The notes under the pieces are model-generated. The model saw only the letters and a list, made by a program, of their open reading frames with translations. It had not been told where the DNA came from and made no database searches. Below, piece after piece: positions 17,279-46,689 of a stretch of DNA of 64,000 nucleotides (position 1 is the first letter of the stretch; the number at the start of each line of letters is the position of its first letter). Source of the stretch: Sarcomyxa edulis (Eukaryota; Basidiomycota; Agaricomycetes; Agaricales; Mycenaceae); the NCBI GenBank assembly GCA_009761415.1, contig QUOL01000020.1, positions 186,001 through 250,000 of the forward strand, in the 5' to 3' direction. A program made the translations under genes and the position numbers.

Positions 17279-17747
17279 CACTGCGGGCACCAGGGGATCT
17301 TTCCTGGGAAAGATGGGCAAAAAAACACGTCATATGTTTCTAAGCCCATCTTTCCGAGGGAAAATAATACATGTTTCTGGAGAAAAGATATGAAAAAAAT
17401 CATCCCTCTTATGTACATGTTTCTGACGGAAAAATGACTTATTTTCCACTTATTTTCCTGCCAGGAACAGCCAAGAAAAAGAAAAAATCTGTCTGATATC
17501 TTTCCGCACGAAACATGAGAACTGTTTCTGGCTATTTTTCTGTAGGAAAAAGGACACATCTCACTAACTAATCTTTCTTCTCGTAAAATATATTATTTTT
17601 TGGACCTATTCCCGGTGTAAGATTTTGATAAAATGAATAATCTTTCCGAAGAAAGATTTCCAGGAAAGATTGAGCGTGTCGCTCAGCGACACGATGAGCG
17701 CGTACTCATCGCGCGCTCAGCACAGAGGTTGACACGCTCACTTGGAA
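17279..17747 (+). repeat. left terminal inverted repeat of the large transposon
   Basis: This copy is uninterrupted. Its inner 80 bp form an imperfect palindrome around GAGCGTGTC and GACACGCTC. Position 17691-17699 (ACGATGAGC) is the unoccupied version of the site where the 1,113-bp element sits in the right copy. Confidence 0.85.
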
Positions 17748-17950
17748 CGGACCATATTGGCGTCATCAGCAAGATCACATTTTGCAAGGTGCGGATAGAT
17801 GTTGGGACCAAGCTGCCTTAGATCGAGATGAGAGGTGTTCCAGCGAGCTCGGACTGTAGTCTGTTCATGTCGGTGTGGAGCAATATAGTCATTACTTGTT
17901 CTGCTTTTAGATTAGATATGTATCCTTTCAACCGGGGAACCCCCTCGCGC

Positions 17951-19374
17951 TCAACTGACTTCCTGCACTGGGAGGACTTCAGTGATTAGTAGGATGCAAA
18001 GTAGGCGAGGCTGTTGAAGGTCACCTTGACAATAGATAGATATGGCGAGTGTGGTCCCTCCGTTAGGAATTGTCACGGTTATAGGCATGGTATTGATGGT
18101 CTCGTCGGAGCCAGAATCGCCACGTACCGCACACAGTTCAGGTGGCACAATGGTGTAATCTGCCGAAATACACAGTCCATGCTCGGGTTTGTAGTACCTG
18201 CGGATATCGTACTGGATGATCCTCCGAGCAAATTCGAGGTCGGACTGGGATGGGTCGAATTCCCTTCGTTCTGTATTGGGCAATTGGATAAGGGTGAATT
18301 CAACTAATAAGTAAGTGTATTGCGTGCCTTTGCGTCGTGACCGTAAATCCTTGCAACGCTGACGATGGTCTTTCCATACCTCAATTTGACATTCGCTGCT
18401 GCAAAAGCAGCCCTCCTGGCACCCTGAACAGTAAGGGAACTTGTGTCGAATATCACGACGACAGCACTATCATCAGGAAATCATCAGTCAGTTGCATTAA
18501 GGGGTAAAGCCAATCTCACAGCATTGTTATCACACTGCCTCACAATGTCAGTGCCAGCTATAGCGAGACGTTCTACGAGTTTGGATTCGAATTGGACCCA
18601 TGCCTCACTAGAGCGACGGAGTCCATCGAAGTGACCGCGGAAAAAGCCCTTCGCCAACTTATCCACCTCTCTCTTGACTTCTCGCAAGACAGACAGATAG
18701 ATTGTATGCTTTTGGATTATCTTCAAAATATGATGAAAGTCGTTCCTGAGATCCGCCATAGTCTCTTCGTCGATGCGGCCTGGTACGTCGAGCAATGTAA
18801 AAGAACTCAACAAAGCACGCAGGAGGCCAGCCCTGAGGGAGAGCACAATGGCTGATATCCCGTCCGTTCCCTCTATATGACGAAGCAGATATTTCAAGAT
18901 GGAAAGCGTGGTCGTGACCATCAGGATACAGGCTTCTTCTCCGTCGACGTGGTCATGTACTTGACGAACCGCAGAATGTGCATGATACAGGACCCGTGTA
19001 ACAACGTGGAGGGAGGAGTGAAAGATGAGATAGCAAGAAAAAGAGGGGTCCATAGAGTCGAACAGCTCGGCCAATATCATGCTGTACGATAGGTGGGACA
19101 TACGCAGATCTGGATCAAGAATCCGTCGTCGCAACTCTGCGAGGAACGCTATGGCGAGCTGCTCCCGCGATATGTGAACCCAGTCACAAATCTTCTCTAC
19201 TACCCAGTCAAATTTCTTGCCGTTGATGAGGACTTCTTGCTGAACCCCTGCAAGTAAAGCAGCTGCGGTAGGATCAACAAAATCTCTGAAGCTGGTCGTG
19301 ACTGCATTTCTATACCACAGACGGGCGGTAATTGGCAAGCAATCACGGAGAATGAGGGAATGGATGATGTTTCT

Positions 19375-19408
<34 letters not shown>

Positions 19409-19932
19409 CTATCACTATAGAAGCAGGTATGGATGAAGTCCAGGATGATAGTGAAGATCAGATGGCGTTGGTCCAGAGTTAGGCATGTACGAGCGGAGGA
19501 GGTCGTGCACTTCGAGTGAAGATAGTTGAGCCATTGGACAATGTCGGGCCATTTGGATACCATGAGGTCAAAAAGTTTCTTTCGATTCTGGCGTAAATCT
19601 AGTGGCACCAGGTCAGCGTCCGACAAACGCAGAAGTTGACCCATTGCTGCCCTGAGCTGATTTAGGGTCATGAGTGTGTGCCAAATGCGAGACGAGAGGC
19701 GAGGGTTGGACGTTGAAGTGCAATCTATATCGCCAGAAACAAGGCCCTCCATCATACACGAGACAGATTCGTAAGAAAGGTCGAAAGCCGCATCAGGAGG
19801 GGAGATGAGATGACCGAAATCATGAATTGCAGTCAGACCGTCGGCAACAGAAAGTATGGGAAACCACACAAGGCCCGCATCGGCCGTCATCTGGGTAGTG
19901 TTTTCTAGTGATGTCGATGGCTCGAGGGGCAT
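17951..19932 (-). CDS. MYND-finger protein of unknown function
   Basis: A long helical N-terminal region of about 480 residues (MPLEPSTSLENTTQMTADAG..., later RHLIFTIILDFIHTCFY and LRDCLPITARLWYRNAV) is followed by a C-terminal MYND zinc finger read across short introns. The finger is HKFPYCSGCQEGCFCSSECQ then WKDHRQRCKD, with the Cys/His spacing intact. This architecture is a large expanded family in Agaricomycetes. MYND fingers mediate protein-protein contacts; no enzymatic activity is suggested. A hexanucleotide repeat at 19375-19412 encodes a run of Asp-Thr. The ATG at 19932 is favoured, though an in-frame ATG at 19986 is possible. It is the first gene inside the left end of the large transposon and runs opposite to the transposase. 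It looks intact apart from uncertain intron edges. Confidence 0.65.
19375..19412 (+). repeat. GGTGTC hexanucleotide microsatellite within the MYND gene
   Basis: Five to six tandem copies encode alternating Asp-Thr on the minus strand without breaking the frame. Confidence 0.85.
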
Positions 19933-20439
19933 TGGCGGGAGGTAGTGGTGATAATGGAAGAGGTGGAAGTACAGACAAAGAGACAAAGGGGAGCGTGTCG
20001 ATCATGTGACCGGAGCCTCAAAATTCTAGTTTCATCCGACACGCTTCTCGTCGCAGCCTGCACCCAAGTATTCCTTGACTTGTATGCCGAAACTCGTCGC
20101 TCCACAGGACTAACAGCTCACCACAGGTTCTGTAACCTTCTTGAGATTCTGAGCAACGATGATACACAAGATTTCCACCACATAGATGATATTACCCTCT
20201 ACCAGTCTTGTGTCAACAAGGTGGCAATAGAACTAAATGAGCAACCGTTGTCGGGACAAACGGTGGCGCGAGAACATCCTTGGTATGCGCAGCTCAAAAG
20301 TCTTCAGTTACAGGTGTCAGATGGAGATTGTCGAATACGGGCTGTTCTCGATACCGGTCTATGACCATACAAAGACCGTCAGTACATACAGACACCTCAC
20401 CAGTCCGCTAACACATCGATGTACGGCGTTCCAACACAG

Positions 20440-21542: not shown

Positions 21543-23302
21543 CTAAGCCTCAGGTTCGGGTTCGTTGAGGGCTTGGTAGGCTGCATAAGAAACCTCCACA
21601 ACCTGAGAAGTAAGGCAATTGAGACAGATACTCGGATTTGACATCAATAATCAATACTTACGTGAACCAGAACCACCGACCATTGTGGAAATGATACCCA
21701 TAATAGAACCAAGATCAAAAGAACTGTCTGTCGATCGATAGTCCTTGTAGGAGCGGCAGCCTCTTCTTGCGCTTGCAGAAAGGTCACGGCACTACGCCCA
21801 AGAGGAACCTATAATTTTGAGTGAATATTTGAACATCGAGAATGCAAGTCTCGACACACCTTTTCCCAGACGCATATCTTTCCGTCACGGCTTGTTGATC
21901 CAGTGGCAATCAAATTTAGAGAGCGGTTCTGAGCTTTAAAACACTGGTTGCAAATTTGAGAAAGGTGTGCATTGGTGACAAAGTAGAAAGACGTACAGTA
22001 ACCGCTTGTATGGGGGTGCGGTCTGAGAAGATAGTCAACAATGCAAACGAAGTAAATTGGCATCGAGGCACGCACCAGAATCCTGCTGCAATTTCTGGAC
22101 GACATTGCCTGTGTCAGCCTCAAACAAGTACACTTTCCCGTGGTCACTACCACAGACAACGAGCTCATCGTTGTCTATAAATGCACATTGCTTGATCTTC
22201 CTCTTAGTGGACAGCATCGAATACGTTCTCAATGGTATTTCTTGAGGAAATTCGTAGAGATCGAATTCGCCGGTGGTCAGATTATTGACCAGAAGCTTCG
22301 TCCAATTCCTGGAGAGAACAGCTTCACCACTGCAAAAAAAAAGTATGAGAGCTTTCCAAACGAAGCAATTAATAAGACTTGCATTCCTCCTTGGAGTTGC
22401 TTCCTCCACTCGATGCTGTTATCTGCAACACGGTATGATATCCTATGACGAATTAGCCTTTGGAATACATAGTAAAGCATTGAACAAAGCACTCACATTT
22501 CGCTAGTTTGCAGATTGTGCACGAGTAGATGATCGTTTGTCTCGCCATAAAACTGGATTCCACGGGGAATATGTACCATCTTGATAGTCCAGAACGGGAC
22601 TAAGACTGGTCCTGGCTCGAACGTTAATGGCGTGAAGAAAATTGTACTTGCTGGTGCGACGTACTTGAGGATTGAAACTTAACGGTGTAGATCTTGAGAT
22701 ATCCTGAATGGCTGGCTGTAGCTAGACGATGGTTCAGCGCATCATACGTCATACCCTCAACAGCATCGTCCATGGGAAACGCGGACATGGTGGTTGCGGA
22801 TGCACTGTCTAGGCGCTGCGGCAAAGTCAGTGTTGCTCGATGTCTTCCGAAAGGATACACGCACTCCAAAATCTCTTGAAACCTGGGCGAATCCAATGGT
22901 CCCTCTTCCGCCGCCAATACATATGAATGTTCTTTCAGTCGGAACAATCGGGGGCACAGAATTGACCCATAAAAGACAAGTTATCTGTCCCCACTTTCCG
23001 ATAGGATGTTGCAGCTCTTGCATGCACTTTGAGGCCGCAACCTCCCAGACACGCAATTTACCATCGTCACCTGAAGATGCATGGATCATCAGCGAGAAGA
23101 AAGCATTCCGAGTCAATATTACCTCCACCAACGACAAATTTCCCATCCTTTGAGAAGAGTATTGCGTTCGTAGGCCCTTCGGCGCCATTGAGTTCTGCGA
23201 GTAAGCGATATTGAGACTTTGCGGAATCTGCGGGTCAGCCAAGTATCGAGGCATGTATGATAGTACATCTCTCACCTCCATATGTTGGTTTGGATTGTCC
23301 AA
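21543..23302 (-). CDS. WD40-repeat protein with a C-terminal membrane anchor
   Basis: Beta-propeller repeats are visible across several exons: LLAELNGAEGPTNAILFSKD then DDGKLRVWEVAASKCMQEL, then TFICIGGGRGTIGFAQVS, MTYDALNHRLATASHSGYLK, and CGSDHGKVYLFEADTGNVVQ. A final repeat (SLNLIATGSTSRDGKICVWE) is followed by a hydrophobic helix (VLLILVLLWVSFPQW) and a short acidic tail ending at 21543. This layout matches a WD40 family that is strongly expanded in Agaricomycetes. The function is unknown and it is probably a membrane-tethered scaffold. The N-terminus is uncertain; exon sequence may extend to about 23450, just beside the AAGAACGG-type repeats. A possible frame change near 22890 is either an unrecognised intron or damage. 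It lies inside the large transposon. Confidence 0.6.
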
Positions 23303-23479: not shown

Positions 23480-23800
23480 TGGTATAAAGCATGGACAATG
23501 AATGACAGACAGTAGACAAAGGATGGAGATGGACGAACAAAGGATGAGCAAGAAATTGACAAAGAACGGACAAAGAACGGACAAAAAATGAGCGAGAGAC
23601 GGACAAAGAACGGACAAAGAACGGACAAAGAATGAGCGAGAGACAGACAAAGAATGGACAAAGACTGGACAAGAGACGGACAAAGGACAGACAAAGACTG
23701 AGCGAAGGACGGACAAAGGACGGACAAAGGCTGAACAAACAAAGAATAGGCAAAGGACACGTAAAGGATGGAGGATCAGAGGATGGGCAAAGAAAGGAAC
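23480..23800 (+). repeat. degenerate tandem repeat (ACAAAGAACGG-type units)
   Basis: About 320 bp of 11-22 bp units such as GGACAAAGAACGGACAAAG and GAGCGAGAGACGGACAAAG. The Ser/Leu/Pro-rich frames on the opposite strand come from the repeat and are not genes. Confidence 0.85.
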
Positions 23801-23872
23801 TGACCTGATCTTGACAAATCTCTTCGGATCCATAAATTGAAGATCTTGAATTGACATCGACACGAATCGACC

Positions 23873-24521
23873 ATGCCTGCATACATCAGAGCGCCTCTTC
23901 CCCTCATCTCAACGCGCATGTCGTTCTGCCTGGAGCCGACTAGGACTCCCGAAATTGCGCTCCGAATGGAGTTCACCGACGCATTCCTTTGTCAGAACCC
24001 GACAAGCGATGTGGACCAGGAACTCGAGCGAGACAGAACTGACACTTTTGAGCGCATCGAAACGAGCTCCGAAAAGATAGCTAAACCCCCTGGGGAGCCT
24101 GGCAGGCCTAATTCAGGGGGCTACTGCTTGGAGACAAAGATGTTGGCGAACGGATGGTCCAAGTCAACTTATGATAAGATATGTGTGAGCATTCCACTTG
24201 ATTTGAGATATTCGAACTACTGACCTCACAATTTCATGCACAGGCCCAAGTACACGACGAGGCCGAAGACAAATTGGAGAAGGCCGTAAGTTTTCGCAGC
24301 CAGGATCAGGACAAGATTGCCGAGATCTGCAATGTTGTGAGTAAGAACACGTCCTGCGATGTCTATAATCACTCACTCCCGAACAGCTGCAGACTAGTTG
24401 GGATCTCTTGGAAGAATACGAGAACTGTTGGCCAGTACGCGACATGTTGAAGCTGCATTTGAAGTACACATCCGAATCGGCTCGAGCCTCCAAGATTAAG
24501 GTTGTAGGCAGACGCAAGTGA
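23873..24521 (+). CDS. hypothetical coiled-coil protein
   Basis: Three exons join cleanly in phase 0: GT..AG introns follow STYDKIC and precede AQVHDEAEDKLEKA, then follow EICNV and precede LQTSWDLLEEYENCWP. The product is about 200 residues, highly charged and helical, ending LHLKYTSESARASKIKVVGR-RK at 24521. The ENCWPVRDMLKLHLKYTS segment resembles a recurring motif in small uncharacterised basidiomycete proteins. No catalytic domain is seen. The start could be 23873 or the in-frame ATG at 23918. It is the only clear plus-strand cargo gene in the left half of the large transposon. Confidence 0.55.
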
Positions 24522-24737: not shown

Positions 24738-25661
24738 CTACACAGCCTGGCGTTTCAATTCGAAAAAGGCTTTCCAGGTAGATACACGATTCCTCCCCCT
24801 CAATTCTTCGTCCACCTCTTGACCAACACCCTCTTCCAAAGCGAGTATCCTGATCGTTCTGGCTAGATCGGTCAACCTCTTGACCTCTTGGGGTGGGACT
24901 GGAATGCTGGCACGACACATAGGGCATGTTGGGTTCCATTTGAGACCGATTCGACGGAAGAATTGGAGTGTGAGGGGATCATACGGAGGTGACATGTCAG
25001 ACAGAAATTGACCGGGACGAGACCTAATGACAGTGTGTAACTGAGTCTCAAAATGGGCCTGCAACGCCTCTTCCGAGAAGATATGGCCGCAGGAAAGACT
25101 ACAAATATGATTAGGGGAACATTAGCGCAATTGGAGGGGAGGGGGTTGGATGCACTAACACAAAAACCTTGAGAGACGAGGTATACAATACGTCACATGT
25201 CATTGTATCTTCAAGTGCGATAGACACCTTGGAAATTGCATCTTTCAAACGAGTAACTTCTGCACGCAGAGCCTCTAGCTGGCGTTCAATTAGCCGTATA
25301 TCGCGAGCATGGAGTGGCATGTTAGCGAACCTCTGCAACCCGTTCCCCCTCCGCCTGTGAAATATCCTGAATAGAACACAGGTAAGTACGAAGGAGAGAC
25401 AACATCGATAGATGCACGCACTTCTTTTAAACCGCGGATCTTTTTGGACATGTCTATGCGAGTGACAAAAGACCCATCATTGGCCTCTACCGACAACGTA
25501 CGGGGGATTTCAGATGATTTTATGTAGACTATATCGTCGTCGTCGTCGTCGTCGTCGGGGATAGCGCATTGGGACGCGGAGTCGAAATGTCCAGGTCGAT
25601 GGGTTTCTGTTGTGTCATTGATAGCAAACGACGTTGGAGCTGAATGGTACAAGAATGACAT
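24738..25661 (-). CDS. degenerate RING-like protein, paralog A
   Basis: Exon 1 encodes MSFLYHSAPTSFAINDTTET, an acidic run (eight Asp from a GTC/GAC microsatellite), then DIVYIKSSEIPRTLSVEAND and RIDMSKKIRGLKEV. A coiled-coil exon follows (QLEALRAEVTRLKDAISKVS). Then comes a RING-like region: TCDVLYTSSLKVF, SLSCGHIFSEEALQAHF, NPTCPMCRASIPVPPQEV. The last Cys pair and the CGH are present. The first expected C-x-x-C has only one Cys and the usual FC has become FS, so zinc cross-bracing is doubtful. The paralog at 32133-33036 shares the same exon layout and the same changes. If functional it would be a protein-binding module rather than a normal E3 ligase; that is inference. Confidence 0.55.
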
Positions 25662-25773: not shown

Positions 25774-26402
25774 TCAGGGTGGATGTAATCCGGGACTACC
25801 ATTAGCAGGATGTCTTCCCTTCAAACAGTGTGTGCCAAAGGACGGCGCGTCGACACATGACGACGAGAACCGCGCACAGTCCTTCAAAGTGATAATACCC
25901 TTGACTGTGTCCGAGAAGAGGTTGCAGTAAGTACAAAAGAGTGTGGAGGGATGATCAGTCTCTGTCTTGGACAAGTTGGGCGTTTGTGATTCCGAGGGTA
26001 GTTCAGCAGGCGTACTAGTGGTGCTCTGAGCACGTAGAGCTGAAGCCTCGCCCCTTCTCCTGGCCATTTGTCTGCTGCCGAGATGAGAATCGAGATCCAA
26101 GTTATACTCCAAAGGTCGAGGCCGTCGATGTCTATGCCAGAATTTACCTACACAAGAGGGTAAGGACACGGTACAAGACGAACCAGTCCAGGAGCACATA
26201 CCACAGATACCACACTGAGACTTGTCTCTGAGTGGGCCCTTCTTCCAATCGCGATATTTTCGAACCTGAACTTGCCCACTAGACCCAGTTCTCTGGCGTT
26301 AGTCTCGGCGAACTCTCCAGGAGACACGGTAACATTGTTGATAACCCACTCAAACTGGTCTTCGAGTCTGATCGAACCAACGATGATATCCAGCTGTATA
26401 GC
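25774..26402 (-). pseudogene. SNF5/SMARCB1-like C-terminal fragment
   Basis: The opening segment, AIQLDIIVGSIRLEDQFEW followed by VSPGEFAETNARELGL, matches the second repeat of the SNF5 domain found in SWI/SNF and RSC chromatin-remodelling subunits. No first SNF5 repeat or N-terminus lies upstream; instead the APC4 relic ends directly beside it. After ARELGL the frame changes and a basic region follows (KYRDWKKGPLRDKSQCGICG, then HRRPRPLEYNLDLDSHLGSR). It is therefore truncated at the 5' side and probably internally deleted. It is intron-containing, so it was acquired or duplicated as DNA, not through an mRNA copy. The family assignment is fairly secure; that it is non-functional is inferred from the missing half. 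Confidence 0.6.
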
Positions 26403-26448
26403 CTATTTATTTATCAGTAATGGATGGACGATGAGGATAAGATAGCGC

Positions 26449-29123
26449 TCACTTCGATCTTTCATCGTCGAAGATTTCCGCCTCTAGGAGCTCGAGATCA
26501 ACCTTAGTTCCTTCTTCCCCGGCGATACAACACTCAAGAAGCGCAATACCGACATTGAGAGAGGTAAATTTGACACCTCTGCACCATCGTATTCGAACCA
26601 AACATACTGTTTCAATAAAGGTCATCGATCAGTCTATTGGCTGAGTTTACAGTGCAGAACTCACGGAAGGACCGAGGGCCCGAAGGCACATGCACAGCGA
26701 GATACTGATAGAAGTTGCCGTTTGACTCGAATCCGGGTCTATGGGTTTCCAGGGAATCTACCAAACTCACCTCGTTCTCATCTTTGATGATCCGCTCCCG
26801 GATAGAGAGACGATCATTTGATTCAGAAATCAGCCTTGCGCTGGCCTGCTGGTTTGCCAATGAATCGCGTCCAAACGAAACTACGGCGGAGCAAGACGCG
26901 GCGGCAGATGCACGGACGAACACTCGTTGGATTAATATTGCCAATTCTTGGGTCAATGCGTCGAGGTTCCTGCCCAGATGTGATGAATCTTTTTGTCCGA
27001 TATTCTACAATTTAATATCAATTAATAAGGATGTAGCACTTCAATTCATGCGCGTTTAAGAGGAGCCTACTGCTTTCCACGCCATTTGCACGAAATTAGA
27101 AGACACATTTCGTGCGTGCTCGACGGCAGAATGAACGTCGCGGTGATCCTCGGGGACGCCCAAATCATCCGGGTTGAAATGAGGGACTGGACCCATAAAC
27201 TACTTATCGATCGAACTGACGACAAGTCCAGATATGAAATAATTGTTTACTTCCAGTATATCGTGTCGCGGGATTGGAGTTGTGTCATTGGTGGGATTGA
27301 CAATTGTTGTCTCTGTGGGCAAAAACTGTTATTATCAGAAGCAAAACGATACAACAAGGCCGCCTATTACCTTAGCGAAACCACAAGATAAACTCCTGGA
27401 AACGAACAAGTTCTCGACGAGAAACAGCAGCCAACCAGGAGGCCATAACAATCGCTCGTTTCACATGATCGACGCACTTGGCAGTATCTTCCAACGAGAG
27501 CTCAAAGGAAGCATACGGGGGCCTTGGGAAAAAATGAGGGGTAGAAAAGTATACAACAGACCAAACGACACTCACAACTGAGACCATCCGCGGATTTCCT
27601 CCAATACTAGATGCAGGCGTTGACAAGCAGGTGCTATTCTCTTCTCTGCCAAGTCTCTCAATTTGATGAGAGCTTCTGAGACGGTAGTTTCCCAGTGTTG
27701 GATACCCTAGCCGTGGTGTCAGTCTCAACCTTCTCGTACACGAAGTTCGCGCCACCTACTCTCTCGCTCATTTGCTCCGCACTCCCTAGAGAATCATGAA
27801 GGGGCTCTGTGGATCTTCCCGTGACTAAAAGACGAGTAAGGTCTAAGACAGGCACAATGTCATCCTCTGAAACGGACGAAACATTAGCTGGAAGCATTGG
27901 ATACGAGAATTTGACAATCACACACGTTCAAAGTGATCCCTCTGCTTCTCTTCCAGGGCTCGCACCCATTTAGGCCCTAGTTCTCGGGCGCCACTGAAAA
28001 TTTCGGAGCCAAACCAGATATCGCGCATGTCTTTCGTCGCGAACCTTGCGTGTTCCAAGCAAGGATAACTCGACGAGGGTAGGTAGCAGGTCAGTAGCAG
28101 CATTGCCCTTATCAATCGAAAGTTTTGGATGAGCAAAGAATATCGGCCGGGTCGAATCTTTGAATAATGACGTCGTTGAGAGGTCAGACTTCGGTGAGAT
28201 AGCTCCAAGGGGGAAGCTTCCGTCGAGGAAACAATGAATAGACCCAACGTCGTAGTTCGTGTCGTCGGCTTCGTCCACGAGCTCTGCCGGACCATTGGAT
28301 TGGAATCGGCCCTGCGACGAGCTGATCGAAGCTGCCAGAAGGTCTGGATGCAGGGCAGGCCAGGATTCGATAACGTCTGGCACCGATGACTTAGGTGTTG
28401 CGCGTGTTTGAGAGCCTTGGAAAGCGAATAGATCGGTTGCGCTACATGAAACATTCAGCCTTCTGCCGAGCCACAATTCGAGACATCACTACGGACGTTA
28501 GTTTTTGGCGGTCTTCCTGCAGGTTATCCAAGAGGGGCAGCGTTTTCAGTATCGAGTGAGCGGAGCCTGTCTATCAGAGGGGTCTATGTGAGTCTCGAAC
28601 GATATAAATAATAGAAAGACCGACGGACAATGATGTTATTTCTCTTGAATATATCTGGAATAGAATTGAGTGTCTGTTTTTTCTCCTGCTGCAACCACCA
28701 TATGGCGGCGATGTGGCCTGAAGTTCCATCAGCGCCGAGAGGAGTCACTGTCAATGAACGCTCCTCCCGTCCATCTTGGACAGAATGCAATGTGATACGA
28801 GGAGGGTCGTGGGCCACAGCGATACTCTGTCCTAGAACGCCGCATCTAAGCAATGTGAGGATATAATGAAAAGTCTGATGCACGTACCATCCGGACTCCA
28901 AGCCAAACCAACAATCTGTTCACTGCTACTCTTGTCTGCATCCATATCAACTTCCCAAGTTTTTGGTCTCTGCATTTTTCCACAGGCTCATTCTGTCTTG
29001 GCCAACAAGCCGAGATATGAGGACGACGAGATCCTTGTCCGGACAGCATGATGCAGATGCTGAGAGACGAGAGGCTGATGGCAGCTGTGATACTGCAAGT
29101 GAGGCGAAAGCATTGGTCTCCAT
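26449..29123 (-). pseudogene. anaphase-promoting complex subunit 4 (APC4)-like, frameshifted
   Basis: Exons in order resemble APC4, a scaffold of the anaphase-promoting ubiquitin ligase. The N-terminal WD40 part reads SRLSASACCPDKDLVVLISR, then QIVGLAWSPDG, then SIAVAHDPPRITLHSVQDG. The helical middle has LLVTGRSTEPLHDSLGSAEQ and KRIAPACQRLHLVLEEIRGW. The late part has NPTNDTTPIPRHDILEVNNY and GPVPHFNPDDLGVPEDH, ending near LLEAEIFDDE. In exon 1, SLWK and MQRPKTWEVD are in different frames at a run of five A near 28975, so an ATG-initiated product stops early. The C-terminus is abruptly replaced by the SNF5-like piece at 26.4 kb. It looks like a captured, damaged copy. A single-base sequencing error could explain the first lesion but not the missing tail. 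Confidence 0.6.
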
Positions 29124-31631: not shown

Positions 31632-31661
31632 ATCACCTTCTTCTGAACGACCGGCAAAATT

Positions 31662-31681
31662 ACTGACGAAGCTTCGTCAGT
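31662..31681. repeat. 20-bp perfect palindrome upstream of the helicase relic
   Basis: ACTGACGAAGCTTCGTCAGT is its own reverse complement. It sits about 30 bp upstream of the first ATG of the helicase-like copy. It may be chance or a protein-binding site. Confidence 0.5.
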
Positions 31682-35041: not shown

Positions 35042-35430
35042 GGTGTCCTGTACCAGCCTATCAGAATTCGTGCTCCAGATTCTGATTATAAACTTACCCT
35101 AGTGGTGACATGGAAGGGTGTCGATGATAGCGATGATACCATTGAGTGCACAGTTCGGGATGTTGGGTGGGATTGTTGGAAGATATCAACCACGTATTTA
35201 CAGTAAGTTTTCTCTACGCATCTTTGCCGATATCTTCAACCCCTTTGTCCTTCCTGCTTGAATGCACGCCGCCTTTGTGACGTTGTGCGTTCCATGTGCC
35301 ATGTGGCCGTGCAACTACATATGCTGATTCCCTTTGTCCTTTGTCCTCTCTTTGTATAATCTCCAGAAACCCCGCTAACCACATACTTTAAGAGCAAAAC
35401 CCCTTCGTTATTATTTCCTCTCGTCTATCT

Positions 35431-38400
35431 ATGTCTATGTTTACATTCAAGAGTCTTTTTTCTGCTCCCTCAGGCTCCCATGGGACGGTGGATGCTAACG
35501 AGGAGACGAGCGACGTGACAGATACTCCTATTCCAGGACAATTCGACCCGGCACCCACTCACGTCAATCCTATCTTCCTGCAGGACAAGAGTGTTTCGCG
35601 CCAACCTGCGCCAACTCCCAATGCCATGACTCCTCAAGGACTCCCAATTGGCCATGCTCCTGTCAATCAAGTTACGACGCGTCCTTTTGAGTTCACGCCT
35701 ACTGTTACCACCACCACTACCACTGCTGACCCTTCGGCCTCGCTGCACCAGTCCGGCAGGCCTCGCGTTCTCGGACGCCGGCGTCACGCAGACCTGGACA
35801 GACTACCAGCGCCATCTCAAGATGGATCTGTATCTGGTGCTCATGACTCTCAATCACAATCCCAGTCCCAGTCTCGTCATGCTGGTGATCACTCCGACGC
35901 TGCCTCACCAGACAAATCAATTCGGTCCAAGACATCCAAACGGCAACTCAGTACGTCAGATGAAAAAGCCGAGGATGAGGCGAGTCACTTTCTGATTCTC
36001 TTCGAATCAATACTCACACATGTTGCAGACCCTCGCGCTGCCTAAGAACAAAGTTCGTGTTGTCTCACCTACATCTATGGTTAGTACAGACTATATAACC
36101 GACCTTGAGAATATAGTAAGCATGCAACGACATCGTTCAACCTCAATTTCTATGCTCAAATCTGTTTTAGAGACACAGGCTTGAGGATGATCTCGCTCGG
36201 GTGGTCCACGAACAGCAGTCATCAGAGGAACGGTTGGTTGCAGAGAAGAAGGCGTTAGAAGAGAAAGTGGCACGCCTATTGGAACAAAAAGAGGAGGAGT
36301 TCGCGCAGATGCAGGAATTGGCTCGTCGAGATCGAGAAATTGCAGTTAGTGAGGCCATGAAGGTTCGGGAGGGCGAATTTCTAGAGGAGATGCATGCACA
36401 CGTTGCTTCAGCGCGCGCAGAGGCGGATCAGGCGATAGCTCGAGAGAGAGCGGAAGTTGGACTTGAACGTCAGCGCCTCCAGGTATGTTCTCCTAATTGA
36501 CTAACTCTCTCCAAAACATATCACGTTCATTGCCGTTACAGCATCAGAACGATGCTAGAGTCTCAGAAGCTTACAAAGAGGCGGAGTTGAAGTACAATGA
36601 GTCGATGTCTCGAGCAATAAACGAAATAGAGCTCGCGCGTCGCAAAGCTGAAGTACGTCGTATGTTGGTCAATTGATGTCATATATCCTCAACTGACAGC
36701 TCAACAATGATCTTAGGCCGAGAAAGATCAAGAGATAGCCAAGCTCAGGCAAGAGTATTACGATGTTGTCAATTCGACAATGATAGAGCCCGGAATAGAG
36801 GCTTTGGAAGCACAAGCCTTGATACCTCAAGAAGCTCCTAGCTCCCAGACACAAACCGGTACAGCAATGAATGCCGATAACCCAGCGATGGACGTCGACA
36901 TACTTACTAATGAGTCTGTCAAAGATCCAATGGTAAGCCCTAATCGCATGTCCGCTGATGTTGTTATTCATCATATACATATCATAGGTCCTGCGTTACA
37001 TTCAACGGCGCGATGGAGGAAAATCAAAGCCGTTAAATGCATGGTTGAATCGAGTTAAGTCTGATCGTTGTATGCGTCATCGACCCAATTCACTGATTTT
37101 CATCCAGTTACCTCAAATGAGAGACAAACCGATCCATCCGCCCATGAAAGTTCCCGTACCTAGAGCCGGCAATCCAGCGCTGAACGAGATAGCTTATATG
37201 CCGAGAGACACCACACCAGACAGTGGTCCAGCGTCCACCCCAATCCTTCCCGTATCTGAGCACGCCTCTGGACCATTGCTTGATCCATCAGCCTCTTCAG
37301 ACTCTGAGTTACCCAGTGGTCCTTTGAATGAGCCTCCTCCGTCCGAACATGAACACAGAGACCCAGGGTCTACTCCACTCACCTCTGATCGCCCTTCTAA
37401 CTCAACCCCTGCACCCATGACATCCTCCTCACCATCATCCAATCCTTCGGTGTCGTCTTTTCCACCTGATAACAACCAATATTCCTCGCCACCTCCAATT
37501 GGGGGTGATGCATCGGATGCTCCACCACGTTGGGCTCAATCTCTTATCGGTACAGTTCAAGATTTACGCGCTCTTGTCGAGGGCCTTGATCAGCGGAATG
37601 TCACCCAAAGGTCTCGTTCCCGTCAAACCCGCGGGGAAGCAGGTATATTCCGTGTTAAGCATGAGCCTAAATATCGTGACACTGAGCGAATCGAGATGAT
37701 GGTGCGTTTACCAATTCCAATGTTTGATCAGCATCTCTGATAATCGGTGAATATCCAGAATATGGTCCGAAAGAAAATGCAGGCTCTGTTTGGTATCAAG
37801 ACTGATGCCGAAATAGCTGCTGCTGTTATGAAGGGTTCCTCAGCGTCCGATGAGGATGTTGCACATTGGATGGCAGATGGCTCTATATCCCCTTCGCTTT
37901 ACCCCATAAATCCTTATTGGAATGACCTTCAATCCCCGTGGAACGATAAGCTCGCAGACCTCTTTGTGGCAGAGCTCACCACCAATTCCACACTGGATAA
38001 GGTTGCTGTCAAGAATCATTTTTTGGACCGATTGGGGACACTCAGAAAACAGCTCGCTGCCAAAGTAACTCTAGGATCCCAGGAGTACGATGCAAAAAAG
38101 CAGATGGAACGTGCTAATAACCGACGCAGAACGCGTCGACAAGCTGTGAGCATGCTTCTTAACCCTTTTCATCAGGAATACTGACCAGTTATTCTCAGAG
38201 GTTCGATACCCGCGTTCTTATTGCGAATGAATTGGCTAGAGCAAACGGCGACAAGCTTGACCCTGTCTGGCTTGCCATTCACGCTATGGTAGACAGCTTG
38301 GGAATCGACGGTATGAGCACCGACTGCAGCGGTGATGAACAAAGGTTTCCAGCTACTGTCATCCCTAAGGACTGGCGCAGCCGGGACGTCATCGATGTCT

Positions 38401-38654
38401 TAGAGCATATCGATCGAAACTACAATCATCTGAATGGCCTCGGTAAATTACGACCGGGATCATCACCGCACACTCGGCAACGCCTTCTGAATACCCCGGT
38501 CAGCACACGAAGGGCACTTGCAAGCTTGCCTATCAATTTCTACAACCGTGTCTGGTATGATAGCCTCACGGACACAGAGAAACGATGGCTTGATGCTAAA
38601 CCTGCGGTGACATTACCCCGAGTCGTGAAGGAAATGGTTGGAGTGGCATTGTAG
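35431..38654 (+). CDS. coiled-coil partner protein of a Tnp2-type transposon
   Basis: An eight- or nine-exon gene gives about 850 residues. The N-terminus is Ser/Pro/Thr-rich (MSMFTFKSLFSAPSGSHGTV). A long coiled coil follows (EKKALEEKVARLLEQKEEEF, later VHEQQSSEERL and INEIELARRKAE), then a disordered Ser/Pro region (37.2-37.5 kb). The C-terminal domain is globular: MVRKKMQALFGIKTDAEIAA, WNDLQSPWNDKLADLFVAEL, then FDTRVLIANELARANGDKLD. Genes of this type sit next to Tnp2 transposases in many Agaricomycete genomes. By analogy with the two-gene logic of En/Spm it might bind the subterminal repeats or regulate the transposase; that role is inference. It ends about 240 bp upstream of the transposase ATG, on the same strand. 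No lesion is seen. Confidence 0.65.
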
Positions 38655-38893
38655 AGTACCTTTACCATATGCGTCTTCGAAATCTCTTGTAATATAATCG
38701 TTGTATTGGAGTTGACGTAGCAGGTACTTATGAATATAAGTATCCGTGAATGTCATACTCTTTCGGTATGCTGTGGGTCTTCTCGGATGTCTACGGCCTT
38801 CAGAAAAAATAGTCATACACAAGCCCCTCAAGGTCACGGTCTTATCGATCGTCTTTGAAGTTCGAACGATCGACATCCTACTTTGAGCTTACT

Positions 38894-41800
38894 ATGGACA
38901 GAGCAGAAAAGGCCTACACCTGCAACTGCACCGTGCATAATTGCAATCAGTATATTGATCCCAAAACAAATCTCAAACCAGGCGGGCGTCCAGTCACACA
39001 ACGCACACTTCGACAACACAACTCGGACGAACTGAAGTCTCAAAAGGCGCAGGAGGCAGAAGAGATCAGAAGGCGGGCTCTCAAACAACGGGATGAAGAT
39101 CTAGTCAGGGCAGTGGAGAGGCTAGACCTAGGAAGTGAGACAGTTCCTCCCTACGAGACTAGAATCCAGGAGAACTCGAGGATCGACCGCGTCAAGCGTA
39201 TGGTCTCCGCAATCAGCGTCATCGCAGATCAGATCTCTGCACTTCGCAAAAACCTGGACGTATTTCCATCATCGTCTTCATCGTCCCCCGAGATGCTCTT
39301 CTCTAGACTGGACAAGATCGCAGATTACATCGATACAGGTGTCAGGTTGAAGGTGGACCTCGATTTAGTGAAGAAAAGGACCAAGACTTCGACAGCCTTG
39401 GCTCTTCATAGAGAGACACTTATTGAGCTCAGTGCCTTTCTGAAGGAGGCACATAGTATCCAGCAACGACTGAAAGAAGAACAACAATATCGGGCTGAGG
39501 CAGCATCAGATCCTAACTCGTACCCATCTGGTGAGTTTTCGTCGCAACCTAGCATTATACGGCGACTGAATTATGTCTTAGACCATCATTTCAATCCGAT
39601 CCTGGCACACGTTGCTCCAATTGTACAGGTCGCCATTCTTATGATTGTCGCTTGCAGTGTCATTCTTCGACTACCTAGACGGGGATGCTCTTGGCTTCTC
39701 AGTATGACGCGCTTTCTTATCCAAAGTGTTGTTCTAGCAATGTACGAGGACATCGGCAAGGCCCCTGTGTATCTACGGCTCATACTTAGCCAATTCCCCG
39801 CGGACGTCCGTAATCCTACCGCAGAATTCGATCTGGAGGCAAAATTCACAATCTTCGCTGTTTGTTCATCCTGTCATCAGACCCACGCGCCATCGATACT
39901 CGGCTCTATTCCTATATATCCCCAGCGCTGTAATTATCGGAAATATAGTGGAGGTTCTCGATGTGGGGACCTACTCGTACGCCCAAAAGAGATAGGCGGT
40001 CAGACACTTTATATTCCAATCAAGTCATACATTGTCTTCAATTTCAAAGACTGGATGGCTGCTTTGCTAGCAAGACCTGGTTTTGAGGAAATGATGGATA
40101 ATTCTTGGAAGGATCTAGATCGTCCAAAAGATGCAAAGATGTCGAGCGTATTTCATGGTTCGGTTTTGCAGGATTTTAAGGGCCCCGATGGTGAAACACA
40201 TTTCGGGAAAGGTGGAGAACAAGGTCGCTACGCTTTCTGCATGGGATTCGATTTCTTCAATCCCCTCACCAATAAGCAGGCGGGAAAGAAGGCCTCTGTC
40301 GGACTCGTAGCCTTAGGATGTTTGAACCTTCCCATCGAAATTCGGTATAAACCGGAGAATATGTTCCTTGCCGCTATAATCCCTGGACCTCATGAGCCGC
40401 CACTAGACAGAACCAACCCATACCTCGCTCCTATTGTTGACTTCTTCGTAAACTTCTGGAGTCCTGGAATACGCTTTACGAAAACCTGGAACTTCCCATT
40501 TGGGCGACTCGTTCTTTGCGCCCTGATCTTGATCATTTGTGACCTATTGGCGGCAAATAAAGTGGGATGTTCGGCTTCTCATAATTCGAATCGCTTTTGC
40601 GGGAGATGCTGGTTCAACAAGGCTACAGGTCAGGGGTTGGCAGATTTCGATCACCAGTCATGGAAAAGGCGGACCAATGAAGATTGGCGCTTTCACGCTG
40701 AAAATTACAGGAACGCTACAAAGGCAACGCAAGCACAGCAAGCCTTCGCTGCGTCAGGTCTACGATGGTCAGAATTGCTTCGACTTCCCTATTTTGATCC
40801 GACCCGTTTCATTGTTGTCGACCCGATGCATAACCTGTTGCTAGGACTAATGAGGAGCCACTTTGTAGACATTCTTGGATATGAGCTGAAAGAAGAGGTC
40901 GTACTCTTGGAACTTCCGATCGACATCTCAACAAATGACCCCAATAATCCACTTCCAACCGATCCGAAATTGGCTGCAGAAGTCACTTCTATCATCGATC
41001 GTCTCCAACGACACATTGAGCCGGATGATGTCCAAAAGGTCAAAAAGTTCCTTGCAAATCGTCATCTTGGGCCATTGAAATATGTCGCCAAAGGTGTAGC
41101 ATGCCCCGGATGGGATCAAAAACCCACAAAAGCGGGAATTGCAGAGAAGCTCACGGCTTGGGTACGTGCCCGTGCTCGAAAATCACTGATTCTATTCACC
41201 TATGTGTATTCTAGAGGATAGCAAAATTGAAACCAAAGCATATGCCTCCTCAGGCTGGTTCGGTTTTCACAGCCAAGGAATTGCAAGAGTTGTGGAATGA
41301 TATGCAAGAAATTATTACACCGTCGTGGTTGACGTCGGTGCCTCCACAAATAGGTGTTGCCGGCGGAACCCCAAAGGCAGACGAATGGCGCGCTTTGGGA
41401 TCAACCTATCTACCCATCGCTCTAGCAAAGTTATGGGGAAATCCCGATTCCAACAATTCCCGGTCTATACGTCGTGCTGAATTCCTAAACCTCACATTCA
41501 TGTTTCTCTCTGCAGTTGATGCTGTGATGTCTCAAGAAGTCTCGACAGCCAATGCTGATGTGTTTCTTTCGTACATGGAACAATATCGCACCGAACTCCG
41601 GCGATTGCTTCCAGACTACATATATACACGACCGAATTATCACGTCTCTTTGCACATCGCGGAATTCCTTTCCATGTTCGGCCCTGTCTATAGCTGGTGG
41701 ACCTACCCCTTTGAACGGACGATAGGAATGCTTCAACGAATCTCTACCAACTATAAACCCGGTATGTCATTTTATAAGATCGCTAGTAGTTGCTTTCTCA

Positions 41801-41995
41801 TCATTAACAATTATTCACTTATACAGGCGAGTACGAAGGAACTATTGGACGCTCGTGGCACAGAGCTTGTAATTTCAGGGCCCTCTTTTCGAAGGATAAC
41901 CCCCGTTGCCCGGATGCAGTCCGCAAGTGTGCCCAAATGTTTTCACGCCTGATCTCCCTAAAGGTTCGGAACATCTTACTCGCGGAGAAGGTCTA

Positions 41996-42030
<35 letters not shown>

Positions 42031-42638
42031 GGAACCTCGACATTGACACAGGAATTTTCACCCGTTCTACGAACCCCCGTCCTTCCAACATCACTTCCGA
42101 CTTGTATGACACACTAAAGGCGTATTCCGGACTGCTCTCAGAGCACAATATACACCACACTCCACATCAAGCGTACTTTCTGAGCCATTTGACTGTCAAT
42201 GGCATTCGATATACAACACGGGCTAGGCACGAAGGAAACAGCAATATTCTTGTTGTCGGAGAAAACGATGAAGACGTCCCGGTTTCGATCGAACAGATTT
42301 TGCGATTTCCAGGCCATTCTGATGCTTGGGTGTTGGTTCGTGCTCATAGAGACGTGTCGGTGAAAAACGATCCGTTCCGCAATTTCCCCCTGCTTCGAGC
42401 AAAGCTGTACAGTCCATTGCTTCACGATGTCCTAGAGCTGGTTCATTCGTCTGCATTAGAGATACACTTCGCAAAGCACACATTCATCTGGGAAGGACAA
42501 CAAGTGTCAGCCATTATATCCTTGTCCAGAGTACGTGGCAACTCCCCGATATCTATTTTTTGTGAAGTAGAACTGAACTTGTGTTTACAGATCCTATTGG
42601 TTTCCGAGACTGGTTCATCGGAGATTCTGGAACTTTAG
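38894..42638 (+). CDS. Tnp2-family (Transposase_21) CACTA transposase
   Basis: The largest frame runs 38894-41162, with introns at 41163-41213 and near 41761-41824. The N-terminus has a Cys/His cluster (CNCTVHNCNQYIDPK). The central region has the Tnp2 hallmarks: IPIYPQRCNYRKYSGGSRCG, EQGRYAFCMGFDFFNPLTNK, ASVGLVALGCLNLPIEIRYK, ENMFLAAIIPGPHEPPLD, LVLCALILIICDLLAANK, FCGRCWFNKATG, and FDPTRFIVVDPMHNLLLG with a conserved Asp. The second half includes NYHVSLHIAEFLSMFGPVYS and WWTYPFERTIGMLQRI. The C-terminus includes an Asp-rich run from a GAC microsatellite and ends SETGSSEILEL. The order matches intact Agaricomycete homologs and no premature stop is seen, so it may be functional. The start at 38894 follows an in-frame region lacking an upstream ATG. 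It cuts and moves CACTA-ended DNA by family function. Confidence 0.82.
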
Positions 42639-45092
42639 CGTGTACTCCTCTTTCTGTGCCTCCAAATTCTTCGCCAGTGTAATTACTGATCTCGCCGTTC
42701 TGATTCACTTGATTAAAGCTTCGTACTTTGTGAGGATTCGGAATATAAGTATAAGATCATAGCCTACACGATGATACGAATGCGTGCATTGGCTAACGCA
42801 AGGCGTGCCTCGTAGATCCTGTACAAGAAACATACTATCAGAACCTATACTTGTTGCATACTAAGTGCAAACTATGCAGTATCAATCGATGCATAATAGC
42901 GCTGGTGCATGATGTTCGGAGGGAGCACCTACACCATTTGTGCTCGAGGGTGCGGGGTGGGGTGGCAGTGCCAGTGCCAAAAAAGTCAAAAGTCCCAGAC
43001 TCGACTGTGACTCAACCAAGATTTCCTAAGCTAGATTAAATAGACAATCTCATTTATGTATACTAGGATAGAGTCTACGCGGTGTCAGACCTTAGAGAAA
43101 ATTCGTTCCCGTCGCGGGAGGCCGACGTCGAGGAGGGAGGAGGGAGGCGCGGGATTTTGCGGTGGCGGTGCCTCGGAAGCGATCCCGGCACCCGACCCGC
43201 GCCCGATCCTGGTAAATCATCGGTACTAAGTTATCTAATCTGCTTTTGATGCACGTTTCGCCTCCAACCGCGCCACTCCTCCCAAGAACAAGTCTCGCTC
43301 GAGAGCACCCTCCTATCACAACCGCTTTCTCTATTATCAGACTGCCGACACAACTCATAGCGTCGATCAGAGACAAGACTTTCCCGCCGTTCCTACGATC
43401 GATTTCAGGCCCATCTCGCGAACTCACTTTGATCATGCCAATGATCAAAACAAACACTTTGTTCGCAAAGGTATTTCTCTTCTTCACTCGTTTGTTTGTT
43501 GATTATCAGTCACCCATCTTTACCCGAATCTCGTCAAAGCCGCTCTCAATTCCCGCTCGACTCCTAGGCAAAAATTCACCCGCCACTATCCAACAAATCC
43601 ATGAAATGTCTATGGACGTATACGATGACGCGTCCGCAAGAAGAACGAAAAGCTGGGGAACGCATATCACCCCATCATCGCCCGTATCGACTAATATCGA
43701 AATTGACGTACCATACGTGCAGAAGTTCATCCAAATGAATCGGATACTGTCAGTAGAGATCTGAGTCCGAGGTGTCCTTTGATTGGGTTGAGTGGTCGGT
43801 CGAAGAATGTGTATGATGATGCGGGACTGATGTTTCCTCAGGGTAGAAGTGGCGATGAGTATCGAGACAGGTATGGCCGGTCATCTGTGCAGTCTGACAA
43901 ATCGGCTAGGGCGACGAGAATTAGTGCGAGGATGATGCGGGAGAATGCAAGGGCGATGATCAGGGGAAGGGAGTATGAGTTCAAGATCGCTGCTATGCAG
44001 ACTCAGATCAGTACTATGCAGAGAAACTTTGGGGATTCGTAGGAACTAGAGGGAAGGAGAGTTTGGGGTTAGGCGAACGGAGGAGTACTTACCTGATTTG
44101 AGACGGGTGAGTGATATTTTCTGATGTAATGGCATGTCTAATACTCTGCATCAGCGTTGAAGGTCTGACGCTTGCCGTCTTATTCTCGAACTGGACCTCG
44201 AATAATCACATTCCAGCCAACAGATAGACTTAGGGACACGATATCGCGACTCAGAGTACTCTATGAGGAAGAGCGAAAGGGCTCGATGTATCGTTCGTTC
44301 TCTTCAATGACTTCCGAGATCATGTCCTGGGGATCGAACGGGCATTCCTTGAGACGCTCTTCCCCGACAAGTCCAGCCATCCAACTCAGAACTCAGATCG
44401 CCTACTTACTAACACGGATGCTTTCGACTCAAAGAGGTCATGAATCCTGGAAGAGACGTTGGTCGCGACGGTTTTGCTTTCTCTGTCACCCTCGGCATAA
44501 GTGGTAGTGCTCAAGCTGCCATCAACGCCCATCGAATCTCTGGAATAGATCCTCGGAGTCGGTCGCCTCAATACCAGCACGCATTCATAATCACAAGCGA
44601 CGCGCGCACCGCCGAATAGAACTGGTTGTTCCCTCTCATTGTAGGGCGCAGAGGAGGCTTTCAAAGTCAGCGCGGACGTCCGTAACAAGTGCGTAGTTCA
44701 GTCTTTGCCAGTTTCTTCTATTGACCGTTTCGCGATGTCACTGCTAGATGGATAGGTGACTATTTCATCTACACGACCGCCTCTCGACACGTAAGCTTTA
44801 CTCTCAATTTCCACATGTCTGGTGACCCTGCCTTGCAGACCCATCTTTGTCCTGGGCTGTATACACCAATGTCATCTGGCCAACAAAGACCCCCACGTTT
44901 CTAGCCAAGTAGCAGACAGCTGTCCTCCGAGACGACATGGAATCTACTAGTACTGCCGAAATGCTCCCCATCATTCTTCCGAACGATCGAGGTTGCTCGA
45001 TTCCTCGAAAGTCGAGGCGAGTACGGTCATCAACCGACACTGACCACAAATCTCTCTTCAGTGAGAGTTTCTTGAAAGCTTGTGACCTATGG
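42639..45092. other. region between the transposase and the right terminal repeat; no firm gene
   Basis: The direct repeat copy at 43086-43205 lies here. Two plus-strand frames (43246-43764 and 43779-44042) both contain a VYDDA motif; the second reads RISARMMRENARAMIRGREY. They might be exons of one unrecognised short gene. The rest (44.1-45.0 kb) shows nothing I can support. Confidence 0.35.
43086..43205 (+). repeat. dispersed GC-rich repeat, copy 2 (direct copy at 13806)
   Basis: See the copy at 13806-13925. This one contains GGAGGAGGGAGG where the first copy differs, and ends GACCCGCGCCC before the sequences diverge. Confidence 0.55.
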
Positions 45093-45143
45093 TTCCAAGT
45101 GAGCGTGTCAACAATCTCTGTGCTGAGCGCGCGATGAGTACGC

Positions 45144-45152
45144 GCTCATCGT
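45144..45152 (+). repeat. 9-bp target-site duplication, left copy (GCTCATCGT)
   Basis: Paired with 46266-46274. The unoccupied single copy is at 17691-17699 on the opposite strand. Confidence 0.8.
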
Positions 45153-46265
45153 TAGTCTCGTTCCCATCCGTTACAGGGTAGGATCTCTCGCTGCGCTCGA
45201 GTAGGAGAGGCCGGTAAACCGGCGCGGCGGAGTTTAAAGTCGGAGTCAAAAAACATGAAAAAAACGCGCGTAGGATCCTACCCTATAACGTCTGGTGCAG
45301 TTGAACCGTAAGGGGTGGGCTCGAGTCACGCTCTCAAAATCTCATATCTTTCTCACTCTCTGGCAACACCTCTGGTCCCAAATCTTTTCTATATCATCCC
45401 AGATGTGCACCCTCGACCCACTGCTGCTTTCCCTTGTTCTTTTGCGCGCATTGACACGTATAATCTCCCTTGTCACGCTCGCAGAGCTCCTTTTCGGTAA
45501 TTTCATCCCTGGGCCCTCAATAGTGGCGTCGTATCCCTCAGATATTGCACTGTATTTCTTGGATATTCTACTCATAACCTTACAGCTTACTCGCGAACTC
45601 CAAACGTGGCCGTAATGGACGAATTCGGCTTTCCAGCACCTTCGAGGTCTCTTAAGCCTCGTCCGCCAAATTTCTTCGACAATACGGTTGCGGGCACCCA
45701 GGTTTTGACGTTAAACTATTCACATGAGAACTGAGAACGTTTTCCGTTCATCTGGCGCTGTCTGGAGACGTGGGGGAGGATGTGCAGAGGATGTGCACAG
45801 TGAGTCTGCCACTACAATCCCCATGTTTTGTCTGTCACCTCGAAATCTTACTTTCTAAACATCCTATCGTGGTCTCATAACATTCATAGTCATATTCAAC
45901 ATCCAATCTCTCCATCCAGTCCAGATCCACCCTTCGACACCTGCATACCCTGTCTTGCTCCTTCGGCTCCTTATCACTCTGTTGGCAAAAGTTTCTTTTC
46001 GTGAGAGGTGTCTATTTGAGATATATACATGTCTAGGTTTATTACACATGGATTTTCAGGGCCCAATACATGTTCCTACTCTCCTGTGTAGAAGTTGGAT
46101 AATTATGGTCAATGTGACTGAGTGTGACCTTGCGTTACTTCGTGACTCGAGCCCACCCCTTGCGGTTCAAATGCACCAGATGTTTGGGTGTGGTATCCTC
46201 CGCGCGTTTTTTTCATGTTTTTTGACTCCGCTCGGCCACACCCGAAACATCTGGAACCGAGATTA
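45153..46265. mobile_element. non-autonomous MULE-like element (1,113 bp)
   Basis: The ends are TAGTCTCG and, in reverse complement, TAATCTCG, and long imperfect terminal inverted repeats extend about 150 bp inward. The best conserved part is GTCAAAAAACATGAAAAAAA followed by CGCGCG, and AACCGTAAGGGGTGGGCTCG against AACCGCAAGGGGTGGGCTCG on the other side. Target duplications of 9 bp flank it. Long inverted repeats with 9-bp duplications are the pattern of Mutator-like elements. The interior has no transposase, only short frames, so movement would need enzyme from elsewhere. The repeats have diverged by several bases. Confidence 0.7.
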
Positions 46266-46689
46266 GCTCATCGTGTCGCTGAGCGACACGCTCAATCTTT
46301 CCTGGAAATCTTTCTTCGGAAAGATTATTCATTTTATCAAAAACTTACACCGGGAATAGGTCTAAAAAATAATATATTTTACGAGAAGAAAGATTAGTTA
46401 GTGAGATGTGTCCTTTTTCCTACAGAAAAATAGCCAGAAACAGTTCTCATGTTTCGTGCGGAAAGATATCAGACAGATTTTTTCTTTTTCTTGGCTGTTC
46501 CTGGCAGGAAAATAAGTGGAAAATAAGTCATTTTTCCGTCAGAAACATGTACATAAGAGGGATGATTTTTTTCATATCTTTTCTCCAGAAACATGTATTA
46601 TTTTCCCTCGGAAAGATGGGCTTAGAAACATATGACGTGTTTTTTTGCCCATCTTTCCCAGGAAAGATCCCCTGGTGCCCGCAGTGAGT

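Follow-up and report, generated by a model that had tools for sequence, protein, structure and literature searches.

This work indicated that positions 17279-46686 of a 64,000-nucleotide stretch of the genome of the basidiomycete Sarcomyxa edulis (contig QUOL01000020.1, positions 186,001 to 250,000; hereafter the window) are one CACTA-type insertion with a 3-bp duplication. The interval, called el1 below, is 29,408 bp long with CACTG...CAGTG ends, and it is very probably a giant CACTA (EnSpm) DNA transposon of autonomous build, which carries kept genes of its own together with captured host DNA. The window corresponds to C13:186001-250000 in a 35.6-Mb genome of 40 contigs, numbered here C1-C40; positions given without a contig are those of the window.

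Insertion as a single unit

An empty site was found in the same genome. A query made of 400 bp from each flank of el1, joined by a single AGT, matched C40:1387909-1388712 without a break over bases 1-802, at 98% identity. With longer flanks, the match spanned 1,618 bp, from window position 16104 across the junction to 47097 (96%, C40:1387101-1388718), with a single AGT and the element absent. Since the flanks are contiguous on C40 with one AGT, 17279-46686 was inserted as a single unit with a 3-bp duplication, as had been proposed in a preliminary description of this DNA made from its sequence alone. The C40 site is paralogous to the window locus and is not an allele of it. It could in principle be an excision product rather than an unoccupied duplicate, as the T-rich stretch immediately preceding the AGT differs by one substitution and a gap of 2 bp. 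However, the AGT is single and the difference precedes it, within a run of T, so that we consider an excision product improbable; in either case, the interval moved as one unit. The features at the limits of the element are the following:

16104-17278, plus strand: left flank, within the duplication that lacks the element on C40
17276-17278, unstranded: left target-site duplication, AGT
17279-17731, plus strand: left terminal inverted repeat, starting CACTG, with ATCTTTCC and TGTTTCT motifs
45112-45152, minus strand: inner part of the right repeat, split off by a nested insertion
46266-46686, minus strand: right terminal inverted repeat, outer 421 bp
46687-46689, unstranded: right target-site duplication, AGT, present once in the C40 empty site
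46690-47097, plus strand: right flank, within the same C40 duplication

The element end reads CACTGCGGGCACC. Compared directly, the arms 17279-17699 and 46266-46686 are inverted copies with 2 mismatches in 421 bp, in agreement with the near-identical repeats of about 420 bp, beginning CACTG and bordered by AGT on both outer sides, of the preliminary description. The right repeat resumes beyond the nested insertion over 41 bp (98%), or to about 45092 if small gaps are allowed. Without this insertion, the inverted repeat thus measures at least 453 bp, and about 470 bp with small gaps, which accounts for the repeat length of about 470 bp also given at first. The repeated motifs noticed in the arms likewise exceeded chance. 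Indeed, ATCTTTCC occurs six times on both strands of the 453-bp left arm, against a mean of 0.05 in shuffled sequences, and none of 500 shuffles reached six. Inverted CACTG ends, a 3-bp target-site duplication (two AGT at el1, one in the empty site) and repeated subterminal motifs are features of CACTA/EnSpm elements. Minisatellite-like repeats were also seen at 16448-16829 (10-bp register, beside the left end) and at 23533-23763 (11-bp register, inside el1).

A second element and other copies of the ends

Other copies of the CACTG end, for which the preliminary description had advised a search, do exist in the genome and include a complete second element. This element, el2 (C12:123839-155915, 32,077 bp), has facing ends like those of el1 and AGT on both sides. 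Its arms are 99.6% identical to each other over 479 aligned bp, but the arms of el1 and el2 are only 77-79% identical between elements; the arms are therefore kept alike inside each element. Subterminal motifs were weaker in el2, where ATCTTTCC occurs three times in the left arm (a count equalled by none of 500 shuffles) and where the most frequent 8-mer was within chance (33 of 200 shuffles equalled it). The second element holds a homologous transposase and the same additional genes as el1. Blocks common to both elements are collinear, except for the transposase block (34533-42659, 8.1 kb, 83%), which is inverted in el2 in nucleotide and translated comparisons alike.

The end motif CACTGCGGGCACCNGG, searched with 0-1 mismatch, was found at six places in the genome, namely the four ends of el1 and el2 and two single ends, of which the one on C4 is a remnant and the one on C20 a fragment. 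This search excluded the 470-bp repeat as a stand-alone element, a possibility raised in the preliminary description. With up to 2 mismatches, 34 matches were obtained versus 31 in a reversed control, i.e., no excess. The 3 bp outside the end are ACT (AGT on the other strand) on C20 and ATA on C4. The C4 end was counted as a remnant because no good partner repeat was found nearby, only weak scattered matches. An element end and a short core piece lie about 5.7 kb apart at C4:104081-109968, and the frames between them look like a gene which we take to be a myosin-type chitin synthase.

The single ends on C4 and C20 lend some plausibility to a pair of separate short elements, or solo ends, that would lie in opposite orientation 29 kb apart by chance, with ordinary host genes between them. 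Yet on C40 the two outer flanks directly adjoin, separated by one AGT, and the facing ends of el2 enclose homologous genes. Such a chance pair, contradicted by the C40 site, is extremely improbable in our judgement and was rejected.

Transposase

The preliminary description had placed a Tnp2-family transposase between the repeats, and this assignment stands on a sub-cut-off PF02992 score together with the presence of PF02992 in all 28 transposase relatives among the matches listed (E, the expect value, at most 0.001; 7,988 candidates scored). A Tnp2-type transposase is a further CACTA/EnSpm feature.

35512-42626, plus strand: Tnp2-family transposase gene (17-exon model, 2,023 codons; main frame 38813-41221)

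No stop was found in el2 over 2,018 codon pairs compared with el1. The best relative among the matches listed was 68% identical over 61% of the query, and more distant Tnp2 relatives are present elsewhere in the same genome, two of them at 31%. In an alignment of 11 transposase sequences, D480, D577, C596, H673 and H683 are invariant and C599 is nearly so; the available text of one study lists C(2)C and H-H motifs for this clade (PMC12730594). In a low-confidence structural model, D480 lies in a strand and D577 just past a later strand of a mixed strand-helix unit, which agrees weakly with the arrangement expected of RNase H-like enzymes. A search of bacterial and archaeal contigs for transposase relatives gave 23 pattern matches, none of which was confirmed, and comparison of the transposase profile with solved structures gave 12 matches at chance level (best E 0.15).

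From a mechanistic point of view, the transposase would recognise the CACTG ends and the subterminal repeats, cut the element out and insert it at AGT, with duplication of 3 bp, as expected from cut-and-paste chemistry. A putative TnpA-like binder of the subterminal repeats could be encoded by one of the core genes or be part of the transposase itself, in the long N-terminal region of its model.

Core genes shared by both elements

Besides the transposase, the core common to el1 and el2 comprises genes for one WD40, one MYND-like and two RING-like proteins as well as two orphan frames, and it is under purifying selection. These genes were predicted by comparative gene models, el1 versus el2:

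18341-19800, minus strand: MYND-like core gene (model; open frames 17954-18466 and 18487-20001)
21549-23222, minus strand: WD40 core gene (10-exon model)
23870-24485, plus strand: core orphan frame 1 (model score inside the antisense-shadow range; fixed-frame test positive)
24849-25275, minus strand: RING-like protein A core gene
32226-32955, minus strand: RING-like protein B core gene, paralogue of A
34682-35068, minus strand: core orphan frame 2

The domain names proposed in the preliminary description fared unequally. The WD40 match is clear (E 6e-14, exceeding the cut-off), while MYND and RING are weak and below their cut-offs (18.4 bits versus 22.7, and about 17 bits versus 27.9, respectively); the DEAD-box helicase piece it called DRS1, derived from C1, is real, and its APC4 reflects a secondary match within the WD40 protein. 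SNF5, also listed as cargo, was not found among the families of the scanned element proteins, which cover part of the frames.

The ratio of nonsynonymous to synonymous substitution (dN/dS) in these models ranged from 0.12 to 0.29. It is biased downward, because the models were partly chosen for synonymous change and antisense shadow models are low as well. Model scores exceeded those of the shadows for the transposase (741), WD40 (114), MYND-like (90) and minus-strand orphan (71) genes, and did not for the plus-strand orphan (57) and the RING-like proteins (42 and 41). In view of this bias, a fixed-frame test was therefore run on all six frames of eight core stretches and a repeat arm. In seven of the eight, exactly one frame was stop-free in both elements, with changes concentrated at third positions. 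The longest of these seven stretches were the transposase exon (526 codons) and the MYND-like gene (368), followed by the minus-strand orphan (127), the plus-strand orphan (102), the WD40 exon (84) and RING-like A and B (83 each). Differences at the three codon positions were 30/17/132 for the transposase, 101/72/158 for the MYND-like gene and 9/12/20 for RING-like B, the weakest case. The repeat arm used as a control had no open frame and no third-position excess (33/29/31).

Close copies of the core were found in the same genome only in el1 and el2, apart from the C4 remnant for one short stretch: over 147 bp, the region of the plus-strand orphan is 75% identical to C4:104081-104230, a site some 5.7 kb away from the element end on C4. 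All 14 WD40 protein matches in the genome lie inside the two elements, as do 10 of the 11 matches of RING-like B (the other is on C15, E 5e-4). Among 3,721 candidates, no relative of the WD40 protein was found at E up to 0.001, while 7,999 candidates yielded one relative of the 505-residue MYND-like frame, 75% identical over 62% of the query.

Passive capture of all non-transposase genes from the host, with presence in both elements owed only to a common capturing ancestor, has arguments in its favour. Seven of the 10 genome matches of the 505-residue MYND-like frame lie outside the elements, as paralogues with 25-29% identity. Moreover, the proportion of synonymous differences (pS) between el1 and el2 is higher for this gene (0.58) than for the transposase (0.35); not all parts thus have one history, and core parts may have been exchanged between lineages. 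By contrast, the frames have stayed open with a third-position excess since el1 and el2 diverged, WD40 is unmatched elsewhere in the genome and RING-like B has a single weak match there, and the captured helicase is broken. Purely passive capture is therefore unlikely in our view. Under the favoured account of a transposon with genes of its own, el1 retains its WD40, MYND-like, two RING-like and probably two orphan proteins, whose role might be, as a guess, the regulation of transposition or resistance to host silencing.

Several observations weigh against an autonomous CACTA element with a selected gene set. The PF02992 match of the 802-residue transposase frame (E 4.7e-6) scored 26.4 bits, below the curated cut-off of 28.6. 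The candidate for the last catalytic E, in the next exon (codon at 41713), was located by eye and lies outside the alignment, and the structural model is poor (predicted local distance difference test, pLDDT, 59). Low dN/dS values, 0.19 and 0.17, were also obtained for two shadow models on the antisense strand of the transposase, which scored 57 and 31, respectively. The eighth core stretch, WD40 22665-23070, which crosses a model intron, had no clear frame in the fixed-frame test, and frame +2 of the WD40 exon 22076-22329 showed a similar substitution pattern despite stops. Finally, the flanks of el2 (C12:123439-123838 and C12:155919-156318) are different dispersed repeats with AGT at each junction; the left-flank repeat elsewhere (C23, C13) runs on after the AGT with TAATCCCC, and the right flank is another repeat (C9). 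The second element is therefore no clean single insertion, and a recombinant element, a rearrangement or a truncated target are possible explanations.

Captured host DNA

According to boundaries set by hand, el1 comprises 15.5 kb common with el2, 7.1 kb of host copies, 1.1 kb of nested element, 0.9 kb of repeat arms, 1.2 kb of other repeats or relics and 3.6 kb assigned to none of these classes. The Pack-CACTA-style load of host genes suggested in the preliminary description was thus confirmed for about one quarter of el1, which is copied host DNA; the WD40, MYND-like and RING-like genes belong instead to the selected, shared core. The host copies are:

25941-26459, unstranded: DNA from one C36 locus in two pieces, 84-85%; the intervening 873 bp of that locus are absent
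26461-31643, unstranded: host DNA of C1:2846433-2851834, copied at 96-98% identity; the helicase gene in the copy is truncated and 131 bp are missing from it
31644-32104, unstranded: copy of the sequence at C36:223785-224282 and C7:429213-429710, 84-85%
43282-44156, unstranded: two older pieces of a C36 locus, 74-77%

The largest piece, 5.2 kb from C1, derives from a locus with a DEAD-box helicase gene that is intact at the donor (PF00270 match of 74.8 bits in the element piece). The copy in el1 starts within the gene and lacks the 131 bp that encode the DEAD motif. These 131 bp lie in the donor coding frame and are no intron, so that copying took place at the DNA level and retro-capture was rejected; the copy also retains what appears to be a donor-gene intron.

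Host DNA would thus have been acquired piecewise at the DNA level, most likely by gap repair with template switching after excision, a mechanism suggested because the joins are blunt and source segments were skipped. Another route, described for Arabidopsis Pack-CACTA in the available text of a review (PMC13317346), is the aberrant excision of elements that lie close together. That model captures the sequence between neighbouring elements, whereas pieces from C36, C1 and C36/C7 adjoin in el1 with 0-2 bp between them and 873 bp of one source are skipped. Adjoining pieces from several loci and this skipped segment suggest serial copying, and aberrant excision is a doubtful explanation here. Decay affects the captured pieces but not the core.

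Host pieces differ in the second element, where they derive from C38, C15, C7 and other contigs, and some of them may be dispersed repeats; the C15 piece contains a UBA-domain frame, of which additional copies occur on several contigs. The second element comprises 15.2 kb common with el1, 10.3 kb with copies elsewhere and 5.6 kb that were left unassigned. The 5-kb stretch that contains the UBA-domain frame (C15:216205-221634 versus C12:127173-131813 in el2, 75-87%) recurs in part on C21, C29, C38 and C2, in two cases close to the end of a contig.

Comparison with known systems

Most descriptions of gene capture by CACTA elements come from plants and mainly concern gene fragments, and the term Pack-CACTA denotes non-autonomous elements without a transposase of their own. 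As in Pack-CACTA, host gene fragments (from C1, C36 and C36/C7) lie between the CACTA ends of el1, which has an open transposase gene inside and is in this respect not of the non-autonomous kind.

The CACTA element CNIRT6 of Cryptococcus neoformans resembles el1 in its CACTG ends, 3-bp duplications and CACTA-type transposase, but it is far shorter (about 7.5 kb), with 24-bp inverted repeats, and no cargo is mentioned in the available text (PMC12810828). Tgmt* of soybean (20.5 kb), like el1, is a large, putatively autonomous CACTA element with a Tnp2 domain, a 3-bp duplication and subterminal repeats; it differs by its 13-bp inverted repeats and asymmetric subterminal regions, and comparable accessory genes are not described in the part of the source available (PMC2613891). 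Pack-CACTA and other plant CACTA elements share with el1 host gene pieces between CACTA ends (PMC13317346, PMC8978399, both as partial texts). However, el1 encodes a transposase of its own along with a retained set of genes, and it is longer than the 16.5-kb Chenopodium CACTA element of the latter partial text (PMC8978399). Fungal EnSpm/Plavaka elements are likewise CMC-type transposons with an extra gene, and EnSpm has CAC..GTG ends and 3-bp duplications, but there the extra gene that can be carried is a TET/JBP dioxygenase, according to the available text (PMC12730594). General Pfam scans of el1 proteins showed no TET/JBP family, and no search was aimed at it.

Starships, as described in the accessible parts of two sources, resemble el1 as giant cargo units with a conserved mobilising enzyme and variable cargo (PMC12134995, PMC13066641), and they are reported from the basidiomycete Tremella (PMC13066641). 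They are defined by a tyrosine-recombinase captain, unlike el1 with its Tnp2-type transposase and long inverted repeats. No such captain was found among the Pfam matches of the scanned element proteins, in the absence of a dedicated search, and el1 is not classed as a Starship. A review of giant eukaryotic transposons mentions CACTA once in its available text (PMC6431247). In the portions of open-access literature available, a giant fungal CACTA element with such a gene set was not found, which is no claim that none is in print. The element appears to share the CACTA features tested, although the last residue of its catalytic triad is only a candidate. What seems new is how large it is, how long and well matched its arms are, and that it combines a transposase with kept genes and recent captures.

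Because two related giant elements, an empty site and intact donor loci occur in one genome, kept parts can be separated from picked-up parts. We tentatively suggest, as a possibility short of even likelihood, that these elements are a Tnp2-transposon counterpart of Starships, i.e., a giant autonomous CACTA lineage with a selected accessory set serving the element and a fast-changing part made of host genes from any chromosome. The accessory set (WD40, MYND-like, paired RING-like, orphans) might then, for example, counter host silencing. If this set proved general, cargo-carrying giant transposons could be driven by an enzyme of the ordinary cut-and-paste type, and the role of WD40, MYND and RING proteins would become a testable question on the persistence of large elements.

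Nested element, order of events and neighbouring sequence

The insertion that splits the right arm is itself a mobile element:

45153-46265, unstranded: nested 1,113-bp element with a 9-bp target duplication GCTCATCGT, 98% copy of C39:1312642-1313755

The C39 copy has its own 9-bp duplication, CAAAGCGTC. The nested element is probably young, non-autonomous and Mutator-like (MULE-like), a label which we presume from the length of the duplication. Regarding the order of events, the synonymous divergence of about 0.46 in the transposase model suggests that el1 and el2 separated long ago. The insertion of el1 would postdate the duplication that gave the C40 copy (2-4%), the C1 capture, 1-4% from its source, appears recent, and the nested element presumably came after the arms had reached their present form. 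Outside el1, the right part of the window contains a 688-residue open frame without a Pfam match at 57181-59247 and a Copia-type gag (PF14223) at 61741-63021.

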